Source: Bacteroidota bacterium (GTDB lineage Bacteria > Bacteroidota > Bacteroidia > UBA8524). From it: a stretch of 64,000 nucleotides of DNA. The position numbers were made by a program, and so were the translations under genes. The notes under the pieces are model-generated. The model saw nothing but the letters and a program-made list of their open reading frames with translations. It was not told the origin of the DNA and searched no databases. Each line of letters begins with the position of its first letter. The stretch's first letter is position 1. This document shows positions 6,074-62,399 of this stretch, piece by piece. Where the stretch lies: the NCBI GenBank assembly GCA_008933805.1, contig WBUH01000006.1:62001-126000 (forward strand). The letters are read 5' to 3'.

Positions 6074-6499
6074 ATGAATGAAGTGTCGATTATAGCAAAG
6101 TTTGAGTCGGCAGAAGCTTTGCGCCTTGACTTTATCGACGGGCTTGCTGCGGGGTTTCCTTCGCCCGCCCGTGATTACATGGAGGAAAGTATTGATTTGA
6201 ATAAGGAGCTGATTAAAAACCCCAACTGGACGTTTATAGGCAGGGTAAAAGGCCAGTCGATGCGCGATGCGGGGATTTCACAAGGAGATTTGGTGGTGAT
6301 TGACCGCTCGTTGGATGCCGTGCACGGACGCATTGCCCTGTGCGCGCTGGATGGCGGGCTTACCATTAAACGCCTTCACAAAACGGCGGATGCCATGTAC
6401 CTGATGCCCGCCAACCCTGATTATAAGCCCATAAAAGTAAGCGAAGAGCAAAACTTTAGCGTGTGGGGTGTAGTAACGTATGTAGTGAAAAAGCTATGA
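6074..6499 (+). CDS. umuD: UmuD-like S24 autoprotease, subunit of DNA polymerase V
   Basis: 141 residues, the usual UmuD length. RecA filaments promote self-cleavage of this protein, and the shortened form joins UmuC in translesion synthesis. The likely cleavage bond is Ala26-Gly27 (LAAGFPSPA). The nucleophile is Ser62 in VKGQSMRDAG and the general base Lys99 in GGLTIKRL, at almost the same positions as Ser60 and Lys97 of the E. coli protein. Its stop overlaps the umuC ATG, so the pair is translationally coupled. SOS control is expected from the family, but I could not identify a LexA site upstream; Bacteroidota LexA sites differ from the E. coli one. Confidence 0.93.
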   Translation: MNEVSIIAKFESAEALRLDFIDGLAAGFPSPARDYMEESIDLNKELIKNPNWTFIGRVKGQSMRDAGISQGDLVVIDRSLDAVHGRIALCALDGGLTIKRLHKTADAMYLMPANPDYKPIKVSEEQNFSVWGVVTYVVKKL

Positions 6500-7776
6500 T
6501 AGCACTGGTAGATTGTAATAATTTTTATGCCTCGTGCGAGCGGGTGTTTCGCCCTGATTTGCTTGGAAAACCGATAGTGGTATTATCTAACAACGACGGC
6601 TGCGTGATAGCCCGCAGTGCCGAAGCCAAAGAACTGGAGGTGCCGATGGGCATCCCGGCCTACCAATTAGAGCCGATGATAAAACAGCACGGCATAGAGG
6701 TGTTTTCTTCTAACTATGCTTTGTACGGCGATATGTCGCGGCGGGTGATGGCTACCCTATCGATGTTTACCCCTGAAATTGAGGTGTACTCTATCGATGA
6801 GGCGTTTTTAAACCTCAACGGCCTTGATTTTGTTGATTTACCTGCCTATTCCGCAGAAATTGTAGAAAAAACAACGCGGTGCACGGGTATCCCTATTAGT
6901 ATTGGCGTGGGGCCTACTAAAACGCTGGCAAAAGTGGCCAACCGTCTTGCCAAAAAGAACCGCGCCAGCAAAGGAGCATTGGTAATCCCTGATAACGCTG
7001 ATGCCATAGCTGAGGCATTGCAAAAAGTACCCATCGGTGATGTATGGGGCATTGGCCGCAGTCATAAAAAGTTTTTGGAGAACCACGGGGTAGAAACAGC
7101 GTACGATTTTACCCAAAAGCCCCGCCAATGGGTAAGCCGAAACATGAAAGTGGTAGGCTTACGCACGTGGGAAGAATTGCGGGGAAATCCCTGCATCGGC
7201 ATGGAGCAGGAATTGGAAGAGAAACAGAACATTTGCACCTCGCGCAGTTTTGGTGAATTGCTGAATGATTACGCATTATTGGAAGAGGCAATCACCTTTT
7301 ATGCTACCGCCTGTGCTGCCAAACTGCGTGCACAAAACAGTTGCGCGGGTGCCGTGTATGTGTTTGCCTATACGCACCCCAACCGGCAAGATTTACCCCA
7401 ATACAAAGCCCGTATGTGGTATGCCTTGCCCACAGCCACCAACAGCACGTTGGAGATTGTGAAATATGCCTTACACTGCCTGCGCACGGTGTACAAACAG
7501 AAAGACCATTTGGGCCGACCTATTTATTACAAAAATGCCGGGGTAATCGTATCGGGTATTGTACCGATGAACGAAATACAGGGTAATATTTTTACCGCCC
7601 CGACGGACGAAAAACACCAGTTATTAATGGAGGCGGTTGACCGTATTAATAACCTTGTGGGCCGCGAAAAGATAACCCTTGCCACGCAAGGCAGCAGCAC
7701 CCGCTGGAAACTGCGTTGCGAAAAACTATCCAACCGCTACACCACCCGCTTAGACCAAGTGGTGGAGGTGGATTAA
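6496..7776 (+). CDS. umuC: UmuC-like Y-family DNA polymerase
   Basis: 426 residues from the ATG at 6496, which overlaps the umuD stop (ATGA); this start gives the classical MIALVDCNNFYASCERVF. The polymerase of the Pol V complex bypasses damaged bases with low fidelity. Catalytic acidic residues are visible in ALVDCNNFYASCE (Asp) and YSIDEAFLNL (Asp-Glu). The helix-hairpin-helix thumb region follows (IGDVWGIGRSHKKFLENHG), then the little-finger domain with CTSRSFGELL. No frameshift. An in-frame start 33 bp earlier lies wholly inside umuD and is unlikely. Confidence 0.95.
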   Translation: MIALVDCNNFYASCERVFRPDLLGKPIVVLSNNDGCVIARSAEAKELEVPMGIPAYQLEPMIKQHGIEVFSSNYALYGDMSRRVMATLSMFTPEIEVYSIDEAFLNLNGLDFVDLPAYSAEIVEKTTRCTGIPISIGVGPTKTLAKVANRLAKKNRASKGALVIPDNADAIAEALQKVPIGDVWGIGRSHKKFLENHGVETAYDFTQKPRQWVSRNMKVVGLRTWEELRGNPCIGMEQELEEKQNICTSRSFGELLNDYALLEEAITFYATACAAKLRAQNSCAGAVYVFAYTHPNRQDLPQYKARMWYALPTATNSTLEIVKYALHCLRTVYKQKDHLGRPIYYKNAGVIVSGIVPMNEIQGNIFTAPTDEKHQLLMEAVDRINNLVGREKITLATQGSSTRWKLRCEKLSNRYTTRLDQVVEVD

Positions 7777-7810: not shown

Positions 7811-9193
7811 ATGAACGATAGTATTGTGGAGTTATTGCAACAAGCCGGGCAGTTAAAAACTGATTTAGACAATCTACGGCCTTTGGATAAAGAGCGGGAA
7901 GCTATTGTATTACAAAAATTACGATTGGATTGGAACTACCACTCTAACCACCTTGAAGGCAACTCATTAACGTTTGGCGAAACCAAAGCCTTGATATTGT
8001 TTGGAATTACTGCACAGGGAAAACCCTTGCAAGACCATATTGAAATTACGGGGCACGACGAAGCGATAAAATGGATTGAAGATGTGGTGAAAAAGCGGGA
8101 ACCGCTTACCGAAAGTTTTATCCGTCAACTACACACTCTTCTATTAAAAAAACCTTACAAAGTAGATGCCATAACAACCGACGGGCAGCCAACAAAAAAG
8201 CTAATAAAGGTGGGTGAATATAAAACCACACCCAACCATGTAGAAACAAAAACGGGAGAGATTTTTAGGTTTGCTTCGCCTGAAGAAACCCCGGCCAAAA
8301 TGTACGACTTGCTGGAGTGGTTTAAAAAAATGGAAGCCGATAAAGAAACCAACCCTATTTTGTTTGCGGCTGATTTTCATTACAAGTTTATACGCATACA
8401 CCCCTTTGACGACGGGAACGGACGTATGGCCCGTATGCTGATGAACTTTATTTTACTGCAATACGGCTACCCTCCTGTGATTGTGAGAACGGGAGAAAAA
8501 GCCCAATACATTGCAGCACTTGAACAAGCCGACGCGGATATTTTTGACCCTTTTATTGAATTTATTATAACCAACCAATTACGCAGCCTTGAAATAATGC
8601 TGAAAGGCGCGCGCGGCGAGAGCATCGAAGAACCGGATGATTTGGATAAGGAATTGGATCTATTAAAGCAAAAGTTGAATGCCAAAAAGAAAACTTTTGA
8701 AGAAATAGACACCTCATTTTTTATTAAAAACAACCTTAGCCCCTTAATTTTAGAAGCCTACAAGAATAGCTTAAAGTTTGAGCCTTTTTTTTCTATACGA
8801 ACTTTAAAAATTAGTTTAACCTTTAACAAGGAATTTCAAGATTATGGAGCAAAAAGATCTTTTAGTTTAAATTTGGTAGGCTCCTCAAATGAAATAATAG
8901 ATAAGAAAATATTGTTATTAAAACAAAAAATTGAAATTTTTGATATTAAAACTATCCACCATATAACCATAAAACTCTCGTTCAATGGTTTTTCACTGCC
9001 AAAAAAACTTCAAAAAGGATACTCGAAAAGCTGGAAACTCTCTTTTAAGGATAAACATTACAGCACTTATGAAGGAAGCAGGTTATTATATAGCGAAAGA
9101 CCACTTTATAATTCGTTAACTTCTCAAGAAATAGAAAAAATTATTTCTTCTTTTTCCATCGCGTTAAAGAATATTTTATCAAAAAATATTTGA
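7811..9193 (+). CDS. Fic-domain AMP-transferase with N-terminal self-inhibitory motif and atypical C-terminus
   Basis: 460 residues. Fic enzymes move a nucleotide part, usually AMP, onto a hydroxyl of a target protein. The catalytic loop HPFDDGNGR starts at His197. The inhibitory helix is N-terminal, SNHLEGN at residues 45-51, fitting (S/T)xxxE(G/N) with Glu49, so this is a class II Fic protein that holds itself inactive. A Fic_N-like region covers residues about 1-90. From about residue 295 (base 8695) the DNA becomes strongly AT-rich and the protein Lys/Phe/Ile/Ser-rich with strand-like stretches (FSIRTLKISLTFNKEF); I do not recognise this part. Target unknown. It stands alone 34 bp after umuC. 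Confidence 0.88.
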   Translation: MNDSIVELLQQAGQLKTDLDNLRPLDKEREAIVLQKLRLDWNYHSNHLEGNSLTFGETKALILFGITAQGKPLQDHIEITGHDEAIKWIEDVVKKREPLTESFIRQLHTLLLKKPYKVDAITTDGQPTKKLIKVGEYKTTPNHVETKTGEIFRFASPEETPAKMYDLLEWFKKMEADKETNPILFAADFHYKFIRIHPFDDGNGRMARMLMNFILLQYGYPPVIVRTGEKAQYIAALEQADADIFDPFIEFIITNQLRSLEIMLKGARGESIEEPDDLDKELDLLKQKLNAKKKTFEEIDTSFFIKNNLSPLILEAYKNSLKFEPFFSIRTLKISLTFNKEFQDYGAKRSFSLNLVGSSNEIIDKKILLLKQKIEIFDIKTIHHITIKLSFNGFSLPKKLQKGYSKSWKLSFKDKHYSTYEGSRLLYSERPLYNSLTSQEIEKIISSFSIALKNILSKNI

Positions 9194-15067: not shown

Positions 15068-18000
15068 ATGAAAAAGCTCCTTTTTATCCTGTTTTTTTCA
15101 GTCTGTTTTGTTATAGCCAATGCGCAAGACAGCCTTAAATACCCGCTGGCAGATAAATATTACCAACTTTCAGAACAAGCTTTCACCGATGAAATTTATG
15201 ACACGGCGTGCAAATATGCCGACTTGCACCTTGAAGTAGAGCTCGGTTTTCAAGCCCCGCGAAGCAGCAAAGTGTTGGTTTCTTACATTACTAAAGCGTT
15301 TTGTGAGTTTAAGGACGGCAACTATAAACAGTCCATCGAAGTATATAACAAGGGCATCAAGTGGATGGATAAAAGTGGCTCGGCAAAGTTTGCCAAGTCG
15401 TTTTTTGATTTTATCGACTTGTGTTACACCATGATGGAGGCCAACGATAAGGTATATTTTGAATACTCAGACAAAGATTACCGTAAAACGTTTCTCTTTA
15501 GGGTAGATGAAGTCTTATGGCGAAAAGGAACAAAATTCAGGCTACGGATAAACGCGGGGTTAAATGACGGTTTGATAATGGGTGCAGTAGCATTCCCTAT
15601 TAGTGCCCCATTGCCTGATAGCGTCCCCGAGCGGTTATTTCAGTTGGGCAAAGGCGAAGTGGTGGATATTAGCCCGTGGAGTGCTGAGGTTGAGGTAGAC
15701 ATTTACGACTCAACCGACACCTATAATTGGGTGCAAGAAGGCGATATTATTGAAACCCGCATCTTTAGTAAGTTTAAAGAAGAAACCATCATTTACGAGC
15801 TGCTTTCAAAAGATGTTTCGTTCATAGATAACAACCGCGAACGGATGTTAAACCCCCGTTATATCATTCACTACGACAGTAAGGAGTTTAAAGAACTGTT
15901 GCTGTTATTGATGGCCGACCAAGTGTTTGATACCGAAGAATTTACCCGCGAGGGCGATATTTTTGTGAACCCTGCCGTAAAAGGCCAAAATCAAGGTAAA
16001 TCCATCCACGATTTGTTTTTAGACCCCGACACTTCTGACATTGAAGATTACTTGGAGTTTGTGGCCTACTTCCCGCGTAAATACATGGGCAAGGATTACA
16101 AAGCCAACGAAACGTATGCCACATGGTTGCTCAACAATTCGCCATCAACTCCTTATGTAATACTTGATAGCTTGTTGGTTGAAAACGACCCTTTGAGAAG
16201 AGTGCAGATTTTTGAATTTAACAAAAGCGACCTTACCGACGATTTTTATGAAAAATGGGCCGAAAAAGCCACTACCTATGCCGATAAGCAGGATTTTAAT
16301 TCAGCACTAAAAACCCTTGATTTGGTTTTTGAAGCCGGCAGTTTTTTTAATAACAAAAAAATAATGGTGCACGGCCTCTATAAAAAAGGCACCGTGCTTG
16401 GCGAGCAGAATATGTATGAGCAGGCTATTGCCAGCTACGATTCAGCTTCAAAACTATACCTGCTGCTTAAAGACACCATAGAACACATCCGCTCTATTTA
16501 TAAAATGGCTGATATTTATGGTGATTGGGCGCGCTATAAACAAGCCGAGCAATACTTTGATATCGCTCAACAAAAATTAAGCAAAAAGATAGGCAAAAAC
16601 GGCACTTATGAAGAGAATGAACTGTTGGCCTACATTCTTTGGGATAAAGGCTATAACGTGTCGCAAAGAGGCGATTACGATGGTGCTTTGAAGGCTTATG
16701 ATGAAGCCGAAAAAATATTAGACCGTATAGGCGGCTCAAAAACCGACAGGGCAACTATTTATCGCAACATGGCCTATGTGAGCAAGCAAAAAGGCTTGTA
16801 TCAGCAGGCAGTAGATAAATACAGCCAATCGATGCAGCTGTTCTTAGAAGCCGGAAACCAAAAGAAGTTTGCCACCCTTAACGATGATATTGCCGACACT
16901 TATTTTAAAATGGGCAAATACCGCGAGGCCATTGTTCATTACCAAAAAGCTTATGAAATTAAATTAGGGTTAGACGATAAATCGGGTGCCGGTTTCTCAA
17001 AATCAAACATCGGGCAGGCATATTGGAACCTGGGCACTTACGATACCGCTATTATGGCTCACCGCGAAGCAGTAAGCCTTAATACCGAAGCAAACGACAT
17101 TGTGGGCATTGCTTACTCGTATGAAAAAATCGGTGATTTGTGGAAGGAAAACGGAAACTTAGACAGTTCTGTGAGCTATTACTTCAAGGCTGAGGAAAAC
17201 TACATTGCCAACAACGATACTACCGATAAACTGGCCGCTTTGAAGGTGCTTTTCGGCGATTTGTACCTCAAAATGAAAAACTATGATTTGGCCATTTATT
17301 ACTACAAACGTGCGCAACAGATACACGCAAGCATACAAAACGATTTGGGAGTAGCCAATGGTAACTACAACATAGGGATGGCCTACTACAACATGAAATC
17401 GTATGTGCAGGCCAAAAACTACATGGGCAAAGCCAGCGTTACCTACACCAAAATTGAAGACAACGGGGGCATGATGAACACCCAGGTGTTGTTGGGTTTG
17501 ATTGCCTACGACAGCGAAGGAAACGGAGCTGAGGCCGAAAAGCTGCTGAACAATGGTCTTAACTATGCCAAAATAAGCAACAGCTATATAAACCTTGCGT
17601 GGGTATGGGAAAACCTAGGATATATAAACACACAACAAGGTAAGCTGGATAACGCCAAAGCCTATTATGATTTGGCCTTGGATGCCTACACCAAAGCCGA
17701 AAGTTACTCGGGTATCGGCGGGGTTAAATTGCGCATAGGCCGCTATTTTATTGAGAAAGGCGAATTTGCAAAAACCCGCCAGATATACTGGTCGGTGATA
17801 AACGATGCCCTAGAGCGTAAAAACTTTTATTTAGCTTCTGACGGATTTGTAGAGCTTGCCCACTATTACAACCTTGTGGGCGAGGCCGACAGTGCGAAAA
17901 GCCTTGCCTATCAATCGCTGGAGATTAACAAAACTCTTCGCAACGATTACATACAAGCCAGTGCCTACCTTATTTTGGGTAACACTTACAATGCCCTTAC

Positions 18001-20122
18001 CCAATACAACACCGCTATTGAGCATTACCGCACGGCAGATAGTATTTACCGCAGCATTGATGATGTGATAAACCAAGTGGTAGCCAAAAACAACATAGGC
18101 ACCATCTATTTTGCCCAAGGCGAATACTCAAGTGCTATCCGCATTTTTGGCTCGGTACTCGAAGATTTGAACCGCATAAAATACGAAGGGGATTTCTTGG
18201 TTTCTGCCTTATTGAACTTAGGTGAAACTTATTTGGAAGACGGCTTTTGGGCTGAAGCAGAACGCTGGACTAAGGAAGGGCTTGCAGTAGCTATTAAACA
18301 AAAAAACCGCCGACAAATAACCAGTGGAAACCTGTTACTGGGGCATCTATTCTTAAACATGAAGAAATACCCCGAAGCAAAATCACACCTGTTTAATTCG
18401 TATAAAGACTATTTGGAAATTGGTGAGAAAGACCGGATTTCAGAAGCCAATACCCTAATCGGTAAACTGTATGTTGAAACGGGTAAAAACGATTCGGCAA
18501 GGATATTTGTAAACAAAGCCATCGAGATTGCTACCCAAACAGGCAACAACTACTACCTGTGGGAGCCGTTGTACCTTTCATCTACCCTCTACATTAAAAA
18601 AGGAGACACCACAAACGCTGTTGCCGACCTTAAAAAATCAGTTGAGGTGGTTGAAGGCATTAAGCGCAACATTGCAGGCCGCAGCAACAAAATGGTGAGC
18701 TTTAGCAAGGCAAAAGATAAATACAAAATATACCTGAATTTGGTGGATTTGCTGGTATCTCAAAACGAGGTGAGCTTGGCCTTTTACTATCAGGAAAAAT
18801 CAAACATTGCGGGCTTAATGGAGCAAACAAGGGGTGATAACGGCCCCACCCGCACCAATGATTTGCTGGATACTGAAACCGAAACTACTGCCAAAGAGTT
18901 GGAGTTGAAAGTTGATGGATATTTAGCCGAACTGATAAAAGAACGCAGCAAACCCAAAGAAAAACAAAGCACCGAAAAAATTAAAAGCCTTGAGGGATTG
19001 TTGGACGTGAGCCAAACCAATTACAACACGTTTATCGACTCGGCAATGAAAACCACTGGTGATGACCATGCAAATTTTGCAAGCACCATAAATCCCCGCG
19101 ACCTTGACGACGCACGTAACAGCCTTCCCGATGGCGATGTGGTAATAGAATACCTGGTTACTGAAAATCAACTGATAATCTTTGTAGCCACTAACAACAC
19201 GTTGAATGCCCGTAGGGTAGCCGTAAAACAAGAAGAGCTTGAAAAAGCTGTGAAAGAGTTTTACTCGCAAATAAGCACCTCAAAAACTGACATCAAGCTT
19301 GTATCGACTAACAGTGATAAATTATACCAAATTTTTATCACCCCGATTACCGACCTTATTGAAGGCCAGCAACGTATTGCACTTGTTCCTACAGGCATTT
19401 TATACTCGCTACCTCTACAAGCACTGGGTAAGCTTGAAGACGGAAAAATGCAATACCTGATAACAAAATACGATATCACCTACATTAACAACACCAAGTT
19501 TATTTATCAGGCACAGCCCAACGGCGAAGTAATAGTAAAAGGTATCCTATGTTTTGGAAATGCCGACAATACGCTTAGTAATGCTGAAAAAGAGGTGAAT
19601 GAAATCTCAGCGTTATTCCCTTCAAAAACATTTGTACGCGACAGTGCCTCTGAAGACAAAGCCAAAACGCTGATGAACAGCTACACCATTGTGCACTTTG
19701 CAACCCATGGCCGCTTAGACCCTATAAAATTCGAAAACAGTTATTTAGTATTGGCTCCTAATATCCTTATGGGCGACGATGGTAAGTTTACCATGAATGA
19801 AATACGTGAGTTTAAAACACTAAGAGGCATCCGCTTAATGGTGCTTTCGGCGTGTGATATGGCAGCTAATGAAAACACCAAGGGCTGGATTAATACCCCT
19901 GCAAATGAATTTGTGATGAAGGGAGTTGGCTCTGTAGTGGCACCCCAGTGGAAAGTACACGATGAAGCCACCAGTGTATTGATGATTGGTTTTTATGAAA
20001 ATCTTAAAAACGGCATGGGTATTTCTGAATCACTTAAAACATCGCAAATAGCATTGGCGCAAAGTGCTAATTTCTCGCACCCGTATTACTGGGGAGCCTT
20101 TGAGGTTATAGGCAAATGGTAG
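15068..20122 (+). CDS. Giant secreted TPR-CHAT protein, putative caspase-like protease
   Basis: 1684 residues from the ATG at 15068. A signal peptide ends at Ala-Asn-Ala19 before Gln-Asp-Ser. After a region of about 380 residues without clear repeats, there are many tetratricopeptide repeats from about 410 to 1230 (for example AYDEAEKILDRIGGSKTDRA, YREAIVHYQKAYEIKLGLDD). A coiled linker holds KERSKPKEKQSTEK-type sequence. The C-terminal CHAT domain (about 1330-1684) has the caspase-type pair: His1547 in VHFATHGRL and Cys1596 in VLSACDMA, then GVGSVVAPQWKVHDEAT. In other CHAT proteins the TPR part senses a partner and the CHAT part cuts. The signal peptide places this one outside the cytoplasm. 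A histidine-kinase-like gene and a receiver gene follow. Confidence 0.9.
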   Translation: MKKLLFILFFSVCFVIANAQDSLKYPLADKYYQLSEQAFTDEIYDTACKYADLHLEVELGFQAPRSSKVLVSYITKAFCEFKDGNYKQSIEVYNKGIKWMDKSGSAKFAKSFFDFIDLCYTMMEANDKVYFEYSDKDYRKTFLFRVDEVLWRKGTKFRLRINAGLNDGLIMGAVAFPISAPLPDSVPERLFQLGKGEVVDISPWSAEVEVDIYDSTDTYNWVQEGDIIETRIFSKFKEETIIYELLSKDVSFIDNNRERMLNPRYIIHYDSKEFKELLLLLMADQVFDTEEFTREGDIFVNPAVKGQNQGKSIHDLFLDPDTSDIEDYLEFVAYFPRKYMGKDYKANETYATWLLNNSPSTPYVILDSLLVENDPLRRVQIFEFNKSDLTDDFYEKWAEKATTYADKQDFNSALKTLDLVFEAGSFFNNKKIMVHGLYKKGTVLGEQNMYEQAIASYDSASKLYLLLKDTIEHIRSIYKMADIYGDWARYKQAEQYFDIAQQKLSKKIGKNGTYEENELLAYILWDKGYNVSQRGDYDGALKAYDEAEKILDRIGGSKTDRATIYRNMAYVSKQKGLYQQAVDKYSQSMQLFLEAGNQKKFATLNDDIADTYFKMGKYREAIVHYQKAYEIKLGLDDKSGAGFSKSNIGQAYWNLGTYDTAIMAHREAVSLNTEANDIVGIAYSYEKIGDLWKENGNLDSSVSYYFKAEENYIANNDTTDKLAALKVLFGDLYLKMKNYDLAIYYYKRAQQIHASIQNDLGVANGNYNIGMAYYNMKSYVQAKNYMGKASVTYTKIEDNGGMMNTQVLLGLIAYDSEGNGAEAEKLLNNGLNYAKISNSYINLAWVWENLGYINTQQGKLDNAKAYYDLALDAYTKAESYSGIGGVKLRIGRYFIEKGEFAKTRQIYWSVINDALERKNFYLASDGFVELAHYYNLVGEADSAKSLAYQSLEINKTLRNDYIQASAYLILGNTYNALTQYNTAIEHYRTADSIYRSIDDVINQVVAKNNIGTIYFAQGEYSSAIRIFGSVLEDLNRIKYEGDFLVSALLNLGETYLEDGFWAEAERWTKEGLAVAIKQKNRRQITSGNLLLGHLFLNMKKYPEAKSHLFNSYKDYLEIGEKDRISEANTLIGKLYVETGKNDSARIFVNKAIEIATQTGNNYYLWEPLYLSSTLYIKKGDTTNAVADLKKSVEVVEGIKRNIAGRSNKMVSFSKAKDKYKIYLNLVDLLVSQNEVSLAFYYQEKSNIAGLMEQTRGDNGPTRTNDLLDTETETTAKELELKVDGYLAELIKERSKPKEKQSTEKIKSLEGLLDVSQTNYNTFIDSAMKTTGDDHANFASTINPRDLDDARNSLPDGDVVIEYLVTENQLIIFVATNNTLNARRVAVKQEELEKAVKEFYSQISTSKTDIKLVSTNSDKLYQIFITPITDLIEGQQRIALVPTGILYSLPLQALGKLEDGKMQYLITKYDITYINNTKFIYQAQPNGEVIVKGILCFGNADNTLSNAEKEVNEISALFPSKTFVRDSASEDKAKTLMNSYTIVHFATHGRLDPIKFENSYLVLAPNILMGDDGKFTMNEIREFKTLRGIRLMVLSACDMAANENTKGWINTPANEFVMKGVGSVVAPQWKVHDEATSVLMIGFYENLKNGMGISESLKTSQIALAQSANFSHPYYWGAFEVIGKW

Positions 20123-20197
20123 CCTTTAAGAAATATGTATTTTGTTTTATAATTTGTTGTACTTTGCGTAATAATATTATGCTGCTGTTTGTGCACA

Positions 20198-20953
20198 ATG
20201 GTAGTGACTGAAAAAGTACATACAACTATAAATTACACACTGCATCAACTGATACAACAAAACCCACAGCTAACAGGATTTGTTATAGAGGCGTTTGAGC
20301 TGCTGATGTATCAAAACGAGGAATTAAAAAAAATCGCCTCGAAATACTCGCACGATTTACGCTCGCCTGTTACCAACATCAACATGTTGTTGCAACTGTA
20401 TGATAAATCGGAAAACGATGGTGATAAACGTTTGTATGTAAACAAAATCTCTAATTCACTCGATAGGCTGCAAGACGGCTTTGAGCAACTCTCACACGAC
20501 AGAAAAATATCTTTAAAACGTATCAGTGAGCAAACCTTGGTGCAATTTGATAAGGTTTTTGCCGATATAAAACTTCAATTGCCTTCAAGTACTTCAGTTA
20601 TCACTGAGTTTGATGCCGGAAACGAAACCTGGGCGCACCCTCGTTATTTTTATAATGCATTTTGCCTGTTGTGTATGATTGCCAATGAGGAAGGAAGTAT
20701 TGCCGTGCAAACTAAAAAGGGCTGGGAAGGTTTACAATGTGTTATTACCTATCCGGCATTTATGAATTTGAACGGCGAGGCCAAAACCGACGATAAAGAA
20801 ACACAAAACGGCTCAACTGCTACACCAACAAATAGTTGGTTTTATTATTTTGCACAACTGTTCTTAGGTGCTACAGGTGCATCTTCGCATATAGAGGAAA
20901 ATGAGGGCGAAGGTGTAAGCAAAATAGTTATTTCATTTTCGCAAGCTAACTGA
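20198..20953 (+). CDS. Histidine-kinase-like dimerisation protein with no visible ATPase motifs
   Basis: 251 residues from the ATG at 20198 (a TTG 9 bp earlier is the alternative). No membrane segment, so cytoplasmic. The H-box is clear: ASKYSHDLRSPVTNINMLLQL near residues 53-73. The following helix hairpin (YVNKISNSLDRLQDGFEQLSHD) completes a dimerisation domain. The C-terminal half lies where the ATP-binding domain belongs, but no DxGxG or GxGLG motif is found, and the N-box region reads YFYNAFCLLCMIANEEG. So it may be a phosphotransfer protein or a pseudokinase. A TACTTTG at 20160-20166 may be its -7 box. The receiver gene starts 1 bp after its stop. Confidence 0.8.
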   Translation: MVVTEKVHTTINYTLHQLIQQNPQLTGFVIEAFELLMYQNEELKKIASKYSHDLRSPVTNINMLLQLYDKSENDGDKRLYVNKISNSLDRLQDGFEQLSHDRKISLKRISEQTLVQFDKVFADIKLQLPSSTSVITEFDAGNETWAHPRYFYNAFCLLCMIANEEGSIAVQTKKGWEGLQCVITYPAFMNLNGEAKTDDKETQNGSTATPTNSWFYYFAQLFLGATGASSHIEENEGEGVSKIVISFSQAN

Positions 20954-20954
20954 G

Positions 20955-21365
20955 ATGATAAAAAATATTTGGATTATTGACGATGACGAAATTTTTCAGT
21001 TTACGGCCCAGAAATACCTTGAACTAAAAAAAGCGGCTGATAAAGCTACTTCGTTTACAAACGGCCACGAGGCCATGAACCACCTGCAACAAATTGTTCA
21101 CGACCCTGATGATTTGCCGGATGTAATTTTACTAGACATTAATATGCCTGTTTTTGACGGCTGGCAGTTTATTAAAGAATTCAGCAGGGTACAAGAGGCT
21201 CTTAAAAAGAAGGTTTTGGTATTTCTTACCACTTCATCTATCGATCAAGCAGATTTTGAAAAAGCCCGCGAAATAAGCATCATAGCCGGCTACATTGTGA
21301 AGCCTTTGAACGAGGAAAAAATTAACGACATCTTAAGCCAATACAATGGCTTGCAAGCCGTTTAG
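20955..21365 (+). CDS. Single-domain response regulator (receiver only)
   Basis: 136 residues, a lone receiver domain. The acidic pocket is IIDDDEIFQF, the phospho-acceptor Asp is in DVILLDINMPVFDGW, and the switch residues are Thr/Ser in VFLTTSSIDQADFEKA and Lys in GYIVKPLNEEKI. There is no output domain, so it passes phosphate or binds a partner, as CheY-like proteins do. It starts 1 bp after the kinase-like gene and surely shares its transcript. Its stop overlaps by 3 bp the stop of the convergent lipoprotein gene. Confidence 0.93.
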   Translation: MIKNIWIIDDDEIFQFTAQKYLELKKAADKATSFTNGHEAMNHLQQIVHDPDDLPDVILLDINMPVFDGWQFIKEFSRVQEALKKKVLVFLTTSSIDQADFEKAREISIIAGYIVKPLNEEKINDILSQYNGLQAV

Positions 21366-22366
21366 TTTTCATCGGGCTGTATCGCCTTTTCTGCTTCCCT
21401 TTTTATTGTAGTTCCAATCTGGTCAACAATTTGGTTGCTATTGGTCATTATCAGTTTGTCAACAAACTTATCCTTACTGCTTTCCTTCACTTTAATCACA
21501 ATGTTATACAAGCCTCTGCTGTAGCATTCCCTAAAGTCACCTTCGTGGAAATAATAACCAAAGCTGCGCGGTACCACAAAGCTAAAGCCGTCAAGCTCTT
21601 CGCCGCGTAAGTTGTTATAATACTCGGCATAGCCTGCGTTCGATTTATTAATGGGCGCATTTCGCAAACTCAGGTAAAACTTGCCCAGCTCCATGTTGTT
21701 AAACAGGTTGCCTTGCTTGTTTACGTAGTTGGTAGTAAACGTGATTTCAAAATCAAGGTGCAGTTTCTCGTCCTCTTTCTTTTGATACAAAGTCCAAGGC
21801 ATATACCAGCGGCTGCTTGATACTTTGGCTTTGGCGTATCTAACCTCAATACTGTCAAGCCTAAGCTTAAAAAACGAATTATTAAAGATATCGTACACGC
21901 CCATGCTATCGGTTACTATTGAAAAACGAGCAACAATAGCCGTATCGGTTTTTCCTTCTTTATTTGTAAAAGTACGTACAAACGTAAAACCGCCAAACTG
22001 CATCCCGATGGGGTCAAACGCGCTTTTAATAGACAGCTGATCATAAAAAAACAAACCTGTTAAGCCGCTTTGATATTCGGCTGTATATTTTTTGTTCTCA
22101 TTGGCAATAAGCTGCTTTACCGCATTTGCCCCCAACGAAACTGCTTGGGTAACCAACCCCGCCGTGATAATACCACGGTCGCGGTCATTAGCTATACGGT
22201 TTGATACCGTAGGAATTTGCTGCTTTTCAAGTTGGGCATAGTTAATCACCTCACTCCGTTGGTCAATGGCCATTTTCACCTTCTCTTCTTTACTCTTATT
22301 AGAGAGTTTAGAAGTAGCACAACCTGCCAGCAGTATTGCACCAACTACTATGTATCCTGTTTTCAT
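21362..22366 (-). CDS. Lipoprotein of unknown function
   Basis: 334 residues. The signal ends in the lipobox ILLAGCATSK, with Cys15 as the lipid-modified residue. The mature part is mixed alpha/beta: strand-like stretches FTFVRTFTNKEGKTDTAIVARF and LHLDFEITFTTNYVNKQGN, and the end FVDKLIMTNSNQIVDQIGTTI. No enzyme motif. I do not recognise a family. It is convergent with the receiver gene and stands alone, so its expression may not be linked to the TPR-CHAT operon. Anchoring at the inner or outer membrane cannot be told. Confidence 0.8.
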   Translation of the reverse strand: MKTGYIVVGAILLAGCATSKLSNKSKEEKVKMAIDQRSEVINYAQLEKQQIPTVSNRIANDRDRGIITAGLVTQAVSLGANAVKQLIANENKKYTAEYQSGLTGLFFYDQLSIKSAFDPIGMQFGGFTFVRTFTNKEGKTDTAIVARFSIVTDSMGVYDIFNNSFFKLRLDSIEVRYAKAKVSSSRWYMPWTLYQKKEDEKLHLDFEITFTTNYVNKQGNLFNNMELGKFYLSLRNAPINKSNAGYAEYYNNLRGEELDGFSFVVPRSFGYYFHEGDFRECYSRGLYNIVIKVKESSKDKFVDKLIMTNSNQIVDQIGTTIKREAEKAIQPDEN

Positions 22367-61931: not shown

Positions 61932-62399
61932 TTAATTAAGCCTTTTCCAAAAAACAACCTTGTCCTCACCATCAAGGTAAAAATCCCTAATGACAGCTTC
62001 GCGCTTGTAACCACATATGTCGTAAAACTTCCTTGTTAATTCAAACTCAGGTAAGCCGGACGTCTCAACCAACAAAATACGATTACCATGTGAGTTGAGC
62101 AGGTGCTCAACATAACTCATTAGTTTTCTGCCTATACCTTTCCCTTGAAAATCTTTATGAACAGCAATCAAATAAAGATTATATGTGCCTACAGTAAGCC
62201 TTTCGGGGGCACAATAAGCAACAGCAATGGGTTTATTATTGTAAAGTTGTGTTAACCAAATATCCTGTGTTTCAGGGTTAGAAAAATAATCAGAAACCAT
62301 ACCTTCGAGCAAATCGGGAGGAAAAAGTCCACTTGTAGCTATTACATTCTTAAGGTCATCTAAATCGCTCTTATTTATTGCTCTGATGTTGTCTGACAT
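61932..62399 (-). CDS. GNAT-family N-acetyltransferase
   Basis: 155 residues. KSDLDDLKNVIATSGLFPPD, WLTQLYNNKPIAVAYCAPER, NLYLIAVHKDFQGKGIGRKL (acetyl-CoA loop QGKGIGRKLM) and ELTRKFYDICGYKREAVI. Standard GNAT length and order. Acceptor unknown. Co-directed with the AraC gene 32 bp upstream; both are cargo between the duplicated methyltransferase ends. Confidence 0.9.
   Translation of the reverse strand: MSDNIRAINKSDLDDLKNVIATSGLFPPDLLEGMVSDYFSNPETQDIWLTQLYNNKPIAVAYCAPERLTVGTYNLYLIAVHKDFQGKGIGRKLMSYVEHLLNSHGNRILLVETSGLPEFELTRKFYDICGYKREAVIRDFYLDGEDKVVFWKRLN

Follow-up and report, generated by a model that had tools for sequence, protein, structure and literature searches.

P0001 belongs to an unnamed family of exported TPR-CHAT proteins that is widespread rather than a one-off, and it is best explained, with moderate confidence, as an exported and normally latent cysteine endopeptidase (CHAT, caspase-like, clan CD) of an envelope caspase-like module. 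The gene lies in a window of 64,000 nucleotides, i.e., the whole stretch of DNA analyzed here (positions 62,001 to 126,000 of contig WBUH01000006.1 from a Bacteroidota bacterium), and is followed by a kinase-like gene, P0002, and a receiver gene, P0003 (Table 1). TPR-CHAT proteases are best known intracellularly, within CRISPR complexes. The existence of a branch that is exported, keeps its active site invariant, exchanges CHAT for C14 peptidases and recurrently has caspase and CHASE2/FecR neighbours suggests that regulated caspase-like proteolysis takes place in the envelope.

Table 1. Features of the P0001-P0003 region, in coordinates of the window.
Feature	Coordinates	Strand	Basis
P0001, exported TPR-CHAT protein, 1684 aa (ATG 15068 to stop 20122)	15068..20122	+	ORF and Pfam; full-length orthologs
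P0001 signal peptide, residues 1-19	15068..15124	+	Sequence and hydropathy; full-length orthologs start alike
P0001 N-module, residues about 20-370	15125..16177	+	Common to CHAT and C14 proteins; no Pfam family
P0001 TPR array, residues about 430-1260	16355..18847	+	Pfam TPR_12 and related models
P0001 CHAT domain, residues 1417-1682	19316..20113	+	Pfam E 7.5e-52; model matches Csx29 and separase
P0001 catalytic His1547 codon	19706..19708	+	Invariant in 23/23 rows; aligns with H585 of Craspase TPR-CHAT
P0001 catalytic Cys1596 codon	19853..19855	+	Invariant in 23/23 rows; aligns with C627 of Craspase TPR-CHAT
P0002, degenerate histidine-kinase-like, 251 aa (His52 codon 20351-20353)	20198..20953	+	Pfam, homolog searches, alignment
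P0003, stand-alone receiver, 136 aa (Asp61 codon 21135-21137)	20955..21365	+	Pfam; relatives' cassettes

The architecture that an earlier note on this DNA had described for P0001, namely 1684 residues with a signal peptide, many TPRs and a C-terminal CHAT domain carrying His1547 and Cys1596, was confirmed throughout by the open reading frame, Pfam and hydropathy. As read from the sequence, the N-terminus is MKKLLFILFFSVCFVIANA followed by Gln20, with two Lys, a hydrophobic core, AxA before Gln20 and no lipobox; a Kyte-Doolittle scan placed the best hydrophobic stretch of the protein at residues 1-19, with none other close. Taking into consideration that a lipobox is missing and that no T9SS tail was seen, the CHAT domain ending the protein, the location of P0001 is probably periplasmic. 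Most of the protein is TPR (TPR_12, E 1.1e-59, 13 stretches by Pfam), and the CHAT domain (PF12770) scores 177 bits against a curated cut-off of 24; a His/Cys dyad, with His1547 within HFATHG and Cys1596 within LSACDM, an association with TPRs and a modelled caspase/separase-like fold likewise place P0001 in PF12770. The absence of a CRISPR locus, also claimed earlier, was borne out, with no gRAMP/Cas7-11 or CRISPR partner for P0001 among the ORFs of the window and no CRISPR or defence partner identified by PADLOC on P0001, P0002 and P0003, where the TPR match was generic. Elsewhere in the window, the plus strand carries a gene for a Fic-like protein with a HPFDDGNGRMARML motif (7811-9193) and what looks like a UmuD/UmuC-type polymerase pair (6074-7776), both judged from sequence only.

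Homologs were sought with residues 20-411 of P0001 (P0004) as a query against 295 genomes of the class, which identified full-length homologs; the N-module, a conserved module at residues 20-370 that the earlier note had overlooked, was found in 6 of these 295 genomes, that of the window counted. A profile of the region identified members in other classes of the phylum, and further members were found in a scan of approximately 85,000 genomes. The hosts are Bacteroidales, Chitinophagaceae, Ignavibacteriaceae, Rhodothermia and one MAG labelled Gemmatimonadetes, i.e., mostly Bacteroidota in the broad sense. Once contigs found twice were removed, the 23 aligned CHAT rows represented 20 distinct genes, P0001 and 19 others, which have in common the order export signal, N-module, TPRs and CHAT; the N-module was recognized in all 20, and an export signal is also present at the start of the full-length orthologs. 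P0001 shows 25-30% identity to the full-length orthologs (25-29%, over most of their length, for the six first aligned) and forms a long branch in the N-module tree. Cyanobacterial TPR-CHAT matches (L120 onward) fall outside the N-module and are not in the family set. The genome of the window has one CHAT gene and three C14 genes. In four genomes of the same taxonomic family, no full-length match to the TPR-CHAT protein and no P0002 were found, and in an empty-site comparison the flanks of lgt and uvrB were not syntenic in same-family genomes. Two further observations concern individual loci: in a MAG labelled Chitinophaga pinensis, the TPR-CHAT ortholog (L116:8545-13666) appears to be split into several frames, which may reflect either a pseudogene or faulty assembly, and paired TPR-CHAT genes, one long with the N-module and the other of about 816-820 aa, are found at L098:8663-16744 and L100:5457-14382.

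The N-module matches no Pfam family, weak TPR matches aside. Its model (pLDDT 90, pTM 0.86) consists of TPR-like helices, a beta-rich domain and then a helical domain, and it matched no PDB fold at E<=0.001; the top matches, a mix of flavohaemoglobin/siderophore-interacting barrels and TPRs, all fell short of this threshold and were not usable.

The earlier note had held that homologs without the His/Cys pair would count against its proposal, and the pair is kept in all 20 distinct genes (23 of 23 aligned rows); two residues after the Cys, P0001 has Met and most orthologs have Thr. A C-terminal profile built from 20 sequences and run against solved structures identified Craspase TPR-CHAT (E 2.4e-11), Csx29 and DdvA in the PDB, and the CHAT region as a single sequence gave no match there by phmmer. 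In the alignment, His1547 falls on H585 and Cys1596 on C627 of Craspase TPR-CHAT (numbers counted from the printed alignment), the published catalytic residues of gRAMP TPR-CHAT, in which proteolysis is lost when C627 is replaced by Ala or Ser (PMC9729208). For the CHAT region, the AlphaFold model (pLDDT 83), least certain in a loop right after the Cys (pLDDT <50 at local residues 337-343), matched Csx29 (Foldseek E 1.4e-15) and also separase and the gingipains.

Further analysis of the N-module identified three genomes in which the same module is joined to a C-terminal Peptidase_C14 caspase instead of CHAT (L052, L055 and L056; Pfam E 5.2e-21, 1.2e-24 and 9.2e-22, respectively), with the caspase-type motifs FAGHG and DVC[FY]GG intact. 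These C14 proteins form one group (support 95/94) inside an otherwise CHAT-bearing set, which is compatible with a single CHAT/C14 exchange in a tree of uncertain rooting in which P0001 is a long branch. Moreover, the C14 locus L052 and the CHAT locus L101 have three further genes in common, in the same order and at 38-53% identity, i.e., a C14-DUF4384 gene (41%), a gene that in L101 encodes a trypsin-like protease (53%) and a gene of approximately 150 aa (38%); the N-module gene of L101 has the opposite orientation to that of L052. Because C14 caspases whose GHG/C motifs are intact are found on the same N-module, a clan CD peptidase would be the retained output, and the plainest reading is that such a peptidase is what the N-module scaffold delivers.

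Among the neighbours of N-module proteins, C14-DUF4384 genes recur (L052, L101, L112, L114 and L097, the last on the same contig as L117), and in L097 this gene and the N-module gene overlap by 4 bases. In Ignavibacteriaceae and related loci (L098-L100, L102, L111 and L113), the neighbours are a shorter second TPR-CHAT, FecR (in L098 by Pfam) and CHASE2 (in L100 by Pfam and in L102, L111 and L113 by similarity). Two of the three C14 genes in the genome of the window are on the contig of P0001, about 80 kb away, in a run (L196:8537-16042) that encodes a C14-DUF4384 protein, CHASE2, an exported protein of 313 aa that has no Pfam match ("FecR-like") and a C14-TPR protein; the C14-DUF4384 protein matches the L097 neighbour at E 6e-98. 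This genome thus has a C14/CHASE2 set resembling the neighbours of the orthologs, unlinked to P0001, a resemblance recognized only post hoc. P0001 likely associates with the exported C14-DUF4384 caspase and with membrane or envelope proteins of the CHASE2 (and FecR-like) kind. These recurrent neighbours provide concrete candidate partners, and the pseudokinase/receiver pair is dropped as a misleading one.

In the mechanism that we propose, the TPR array and the N-module would keep the protease latent, and the TPR/N-module region would bind a partner or substrate in the envelope. This contact would shift the CHAT active site to its competent form, as in Craspase TPR-CHAT and separase, and activated P0001 would then cleave an envelope protein. 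The latency step is modelled on Craspase TPR-CHAT, whose catalytic residues are approximately 7 Angstrom apart in the inactive form and approximately 3 Angstrom apart in the active form (PMC9729208). A broader and considerably more tentative proposal is that exported N-module/TPR scaffolds with interchangeable CHAT and C14 domains could act in one pathway with an exported C14-DUF4384 caspase and a CHASE2 membrane receptor, possibly an extracytoplasmic proteolytic cascade of Bacteroidota and allied phyla.

The kinase-like and receiver genes that were described as starting 75 bp after P0001 were confirmed by ORFs and Pfam, and the statement that none of the three genes spans the membrane also held, as a Kyte-Doolittle scan found no transmembrane segment in P0002 or P0003. 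P0003 has a receiver domain (Pfam E 5.6e-16), and P0002 matches HisKA (E 2e-7) with no match to HATPase_c. When P0002 was aligned with nine full kinases, the H-box SHDLRSPV with His52 was found to be kept and the N, G1, F and G2 boxes to be missing, a loss that had previously been overlooked; P0002 is therefore not expected to bind ATP in the manner of a kinase. P0002 may pass phosphate like Spo0B or ChpT, whose sequence pattern (DHp helices with a degenerate ATPase domain) it fits, the ChpT match being weak (E 0.013). No homologs of P0002 beyond generic kinases were found in 60 related genomes (four of the same family), and none were found in plasmids or in a scan of species genomes that reaches close relatives only; relatives of P0003 were present in 31 of the 60 genomes. 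At least five other receivers in the genome of the window are located directly behind full kinases of 492-975 aa (L085, L086, L087, L089 and L092), the arrangement of a kinase with a stand-alone receiver also occurs in relatives (L093-L096), and none of these cassettes has a TPR-CHAT gene beside it. P0002 and P0003 are like such Bacteroidota cassettes, from which P0002 differs in its missing boxes, and they look like a decayed copy of one. On the minus strand, a gene for a putative 334-aa lipoprotein without a Pfam match (21362-22366) is convergent with the receiver gene, the two ends overlapping by 4 bases.

The earlier note had proposed an exported envelope protease or sensor that reports to, or is set by, this adjacent relay. 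The exported TPR-CHAT protein with its intact and conserved His/Cys dyad stands, but the relay wiring is not supported, as a kinase or receiver gene comes next in none of the 20 distinct homologous N-module loci whose downstream gene is visible. Conservation of the three-gene order in other Bacteroidota had been put forward as a test of the link, which fails it because the trio is preserved in none of these loci. A conserved TPR-CHAT/kinase/receiver operon is rejected on the basis of these loci and of P0002 having no homolog found elsewhere; in addition, no kinases were detected in the flanks of N-module loci by a five-sequence kinase profile, which remote kinases may escape. The partial exception comes from two Bacteroidales MAGs that are closely related, in which a receiver-PAS gene that runs off the contig end is divergent from TPR-CHAT (L101:1-643 and L104:1-961). 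This exception would fit an operon assembled recently in the lineage, in which the exported protease is set or read by the pseudokinase, through phosphotransfer, and by the receiver, as would the common strand, a 75-bp gap between P0001 and P0002 with no terminator-like site (scan of 20000-21500), the single base separating P0002 from P0003, and the retention of His52 and Asp61. Such an operon is nevertheless improbable given the gene order in 0 of 20 loci, the existence of kinase-receiver cassettes without TPR-CHAT, the lack of a membrane-spanning link between P0001 and the relay, and the absence of P0002 homologs. Promoter-like sites in 20000-21500 were no more frequent than expected by chance (5 vs 4.3). 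P0002 and P0003 are judged to be a lineage-specific neighbour, at most co-transcribed with P0001, and not a part of a conserved system.

Alongside this relay model, the most likely alternative to a latent protease is a non-catalytic exported scaffold or sensor, in which CHAT binds peptides and the TPR superhelix works as a periplasmic signalling input. This model is consistent with the predominance of TPRs in P0001, the CHAT domain of the transmembrane anti-sigma factor DdvA, and the signalling-type genes (FecR and CHASE2) that neighbour the gene in relatives; however, both catalytic residues are invariant in 20 distinct genes at 25-30% identity and CHAT is exchanged for C14 caspases with intact motifs, and a purely non-catalytic role is rather unlikely. 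CHAT and caspase domains are also frequent effectors of defence systems (PMC10907252), and this, together with the patchy distribution of the N-module (6 of 295 class genomes), could suggest an exported protease that serves antagonism or self-killing, or a component of a defence located in the envelope, similar to the caspase effectors of those systems. Such a function has a low probability, as the family is exported, no defence-family match was obtained except a generic TPR model, and no immunity gene or phage-related neighbour was seen. A latent envelope protease remains our preferred reading of P0001.

TPR-CHAT proteins at membranes are already known, from HetF (PMC8406250) and, by PDB entries, DdvA, so the cytoplasmic location that the earlier note gave for the studied TPR-CHAT proteases holds for Craspase TPR-CHAT but is incomplete. 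No description of an exported TPR-CHAT branch with the N-module, its C14 counterpart and these neighbours was found in the literature searched, which covered few subscription journals, nor was a CHAT domain found there together with CHASE2 or with CHASE2 and FecR; a survey from 2012 covered bacterial caspases that probably have signal peptides (PMC3501461). HetF, a cyanobacterial membrane protein (PMC8406250), resembles P0001 in combining CHAT with TPRs at the envelope, but has an N-terminal CHAT (aa 1-555), one transmembrane segment and a role in the divisome. DdvA (8rot/8rw5) is likewise membrane-linked and has a CHAT domain (fold match E 4.2e-12), whereas it is an anti-sigma factor with a transmembrane segment and P0001 has only a signal peptide. 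The P0001 model has the same peptidase fold as separase and gingipains, with no detectable full-length relation. Gingipains are exported by a Bacteroidota species. The bacterial caspases and orthocaspases of Peptidase_C14 belong to a different Pfam family of the same clan and P0001 itself has CHAT, but three C14 proteins carry the same N-module. Craspase TPR-CHAT/Csx29, the best PDB match by both profile and fold, has TPRs followed by CHAT and an aligned dyad, as P0001 does; it is, however, much shorter, cytoplasmic and bound to gRAMP/Cas7-11, whereas P0001 has no CRISPR partner and carries an export signal and the N-module.
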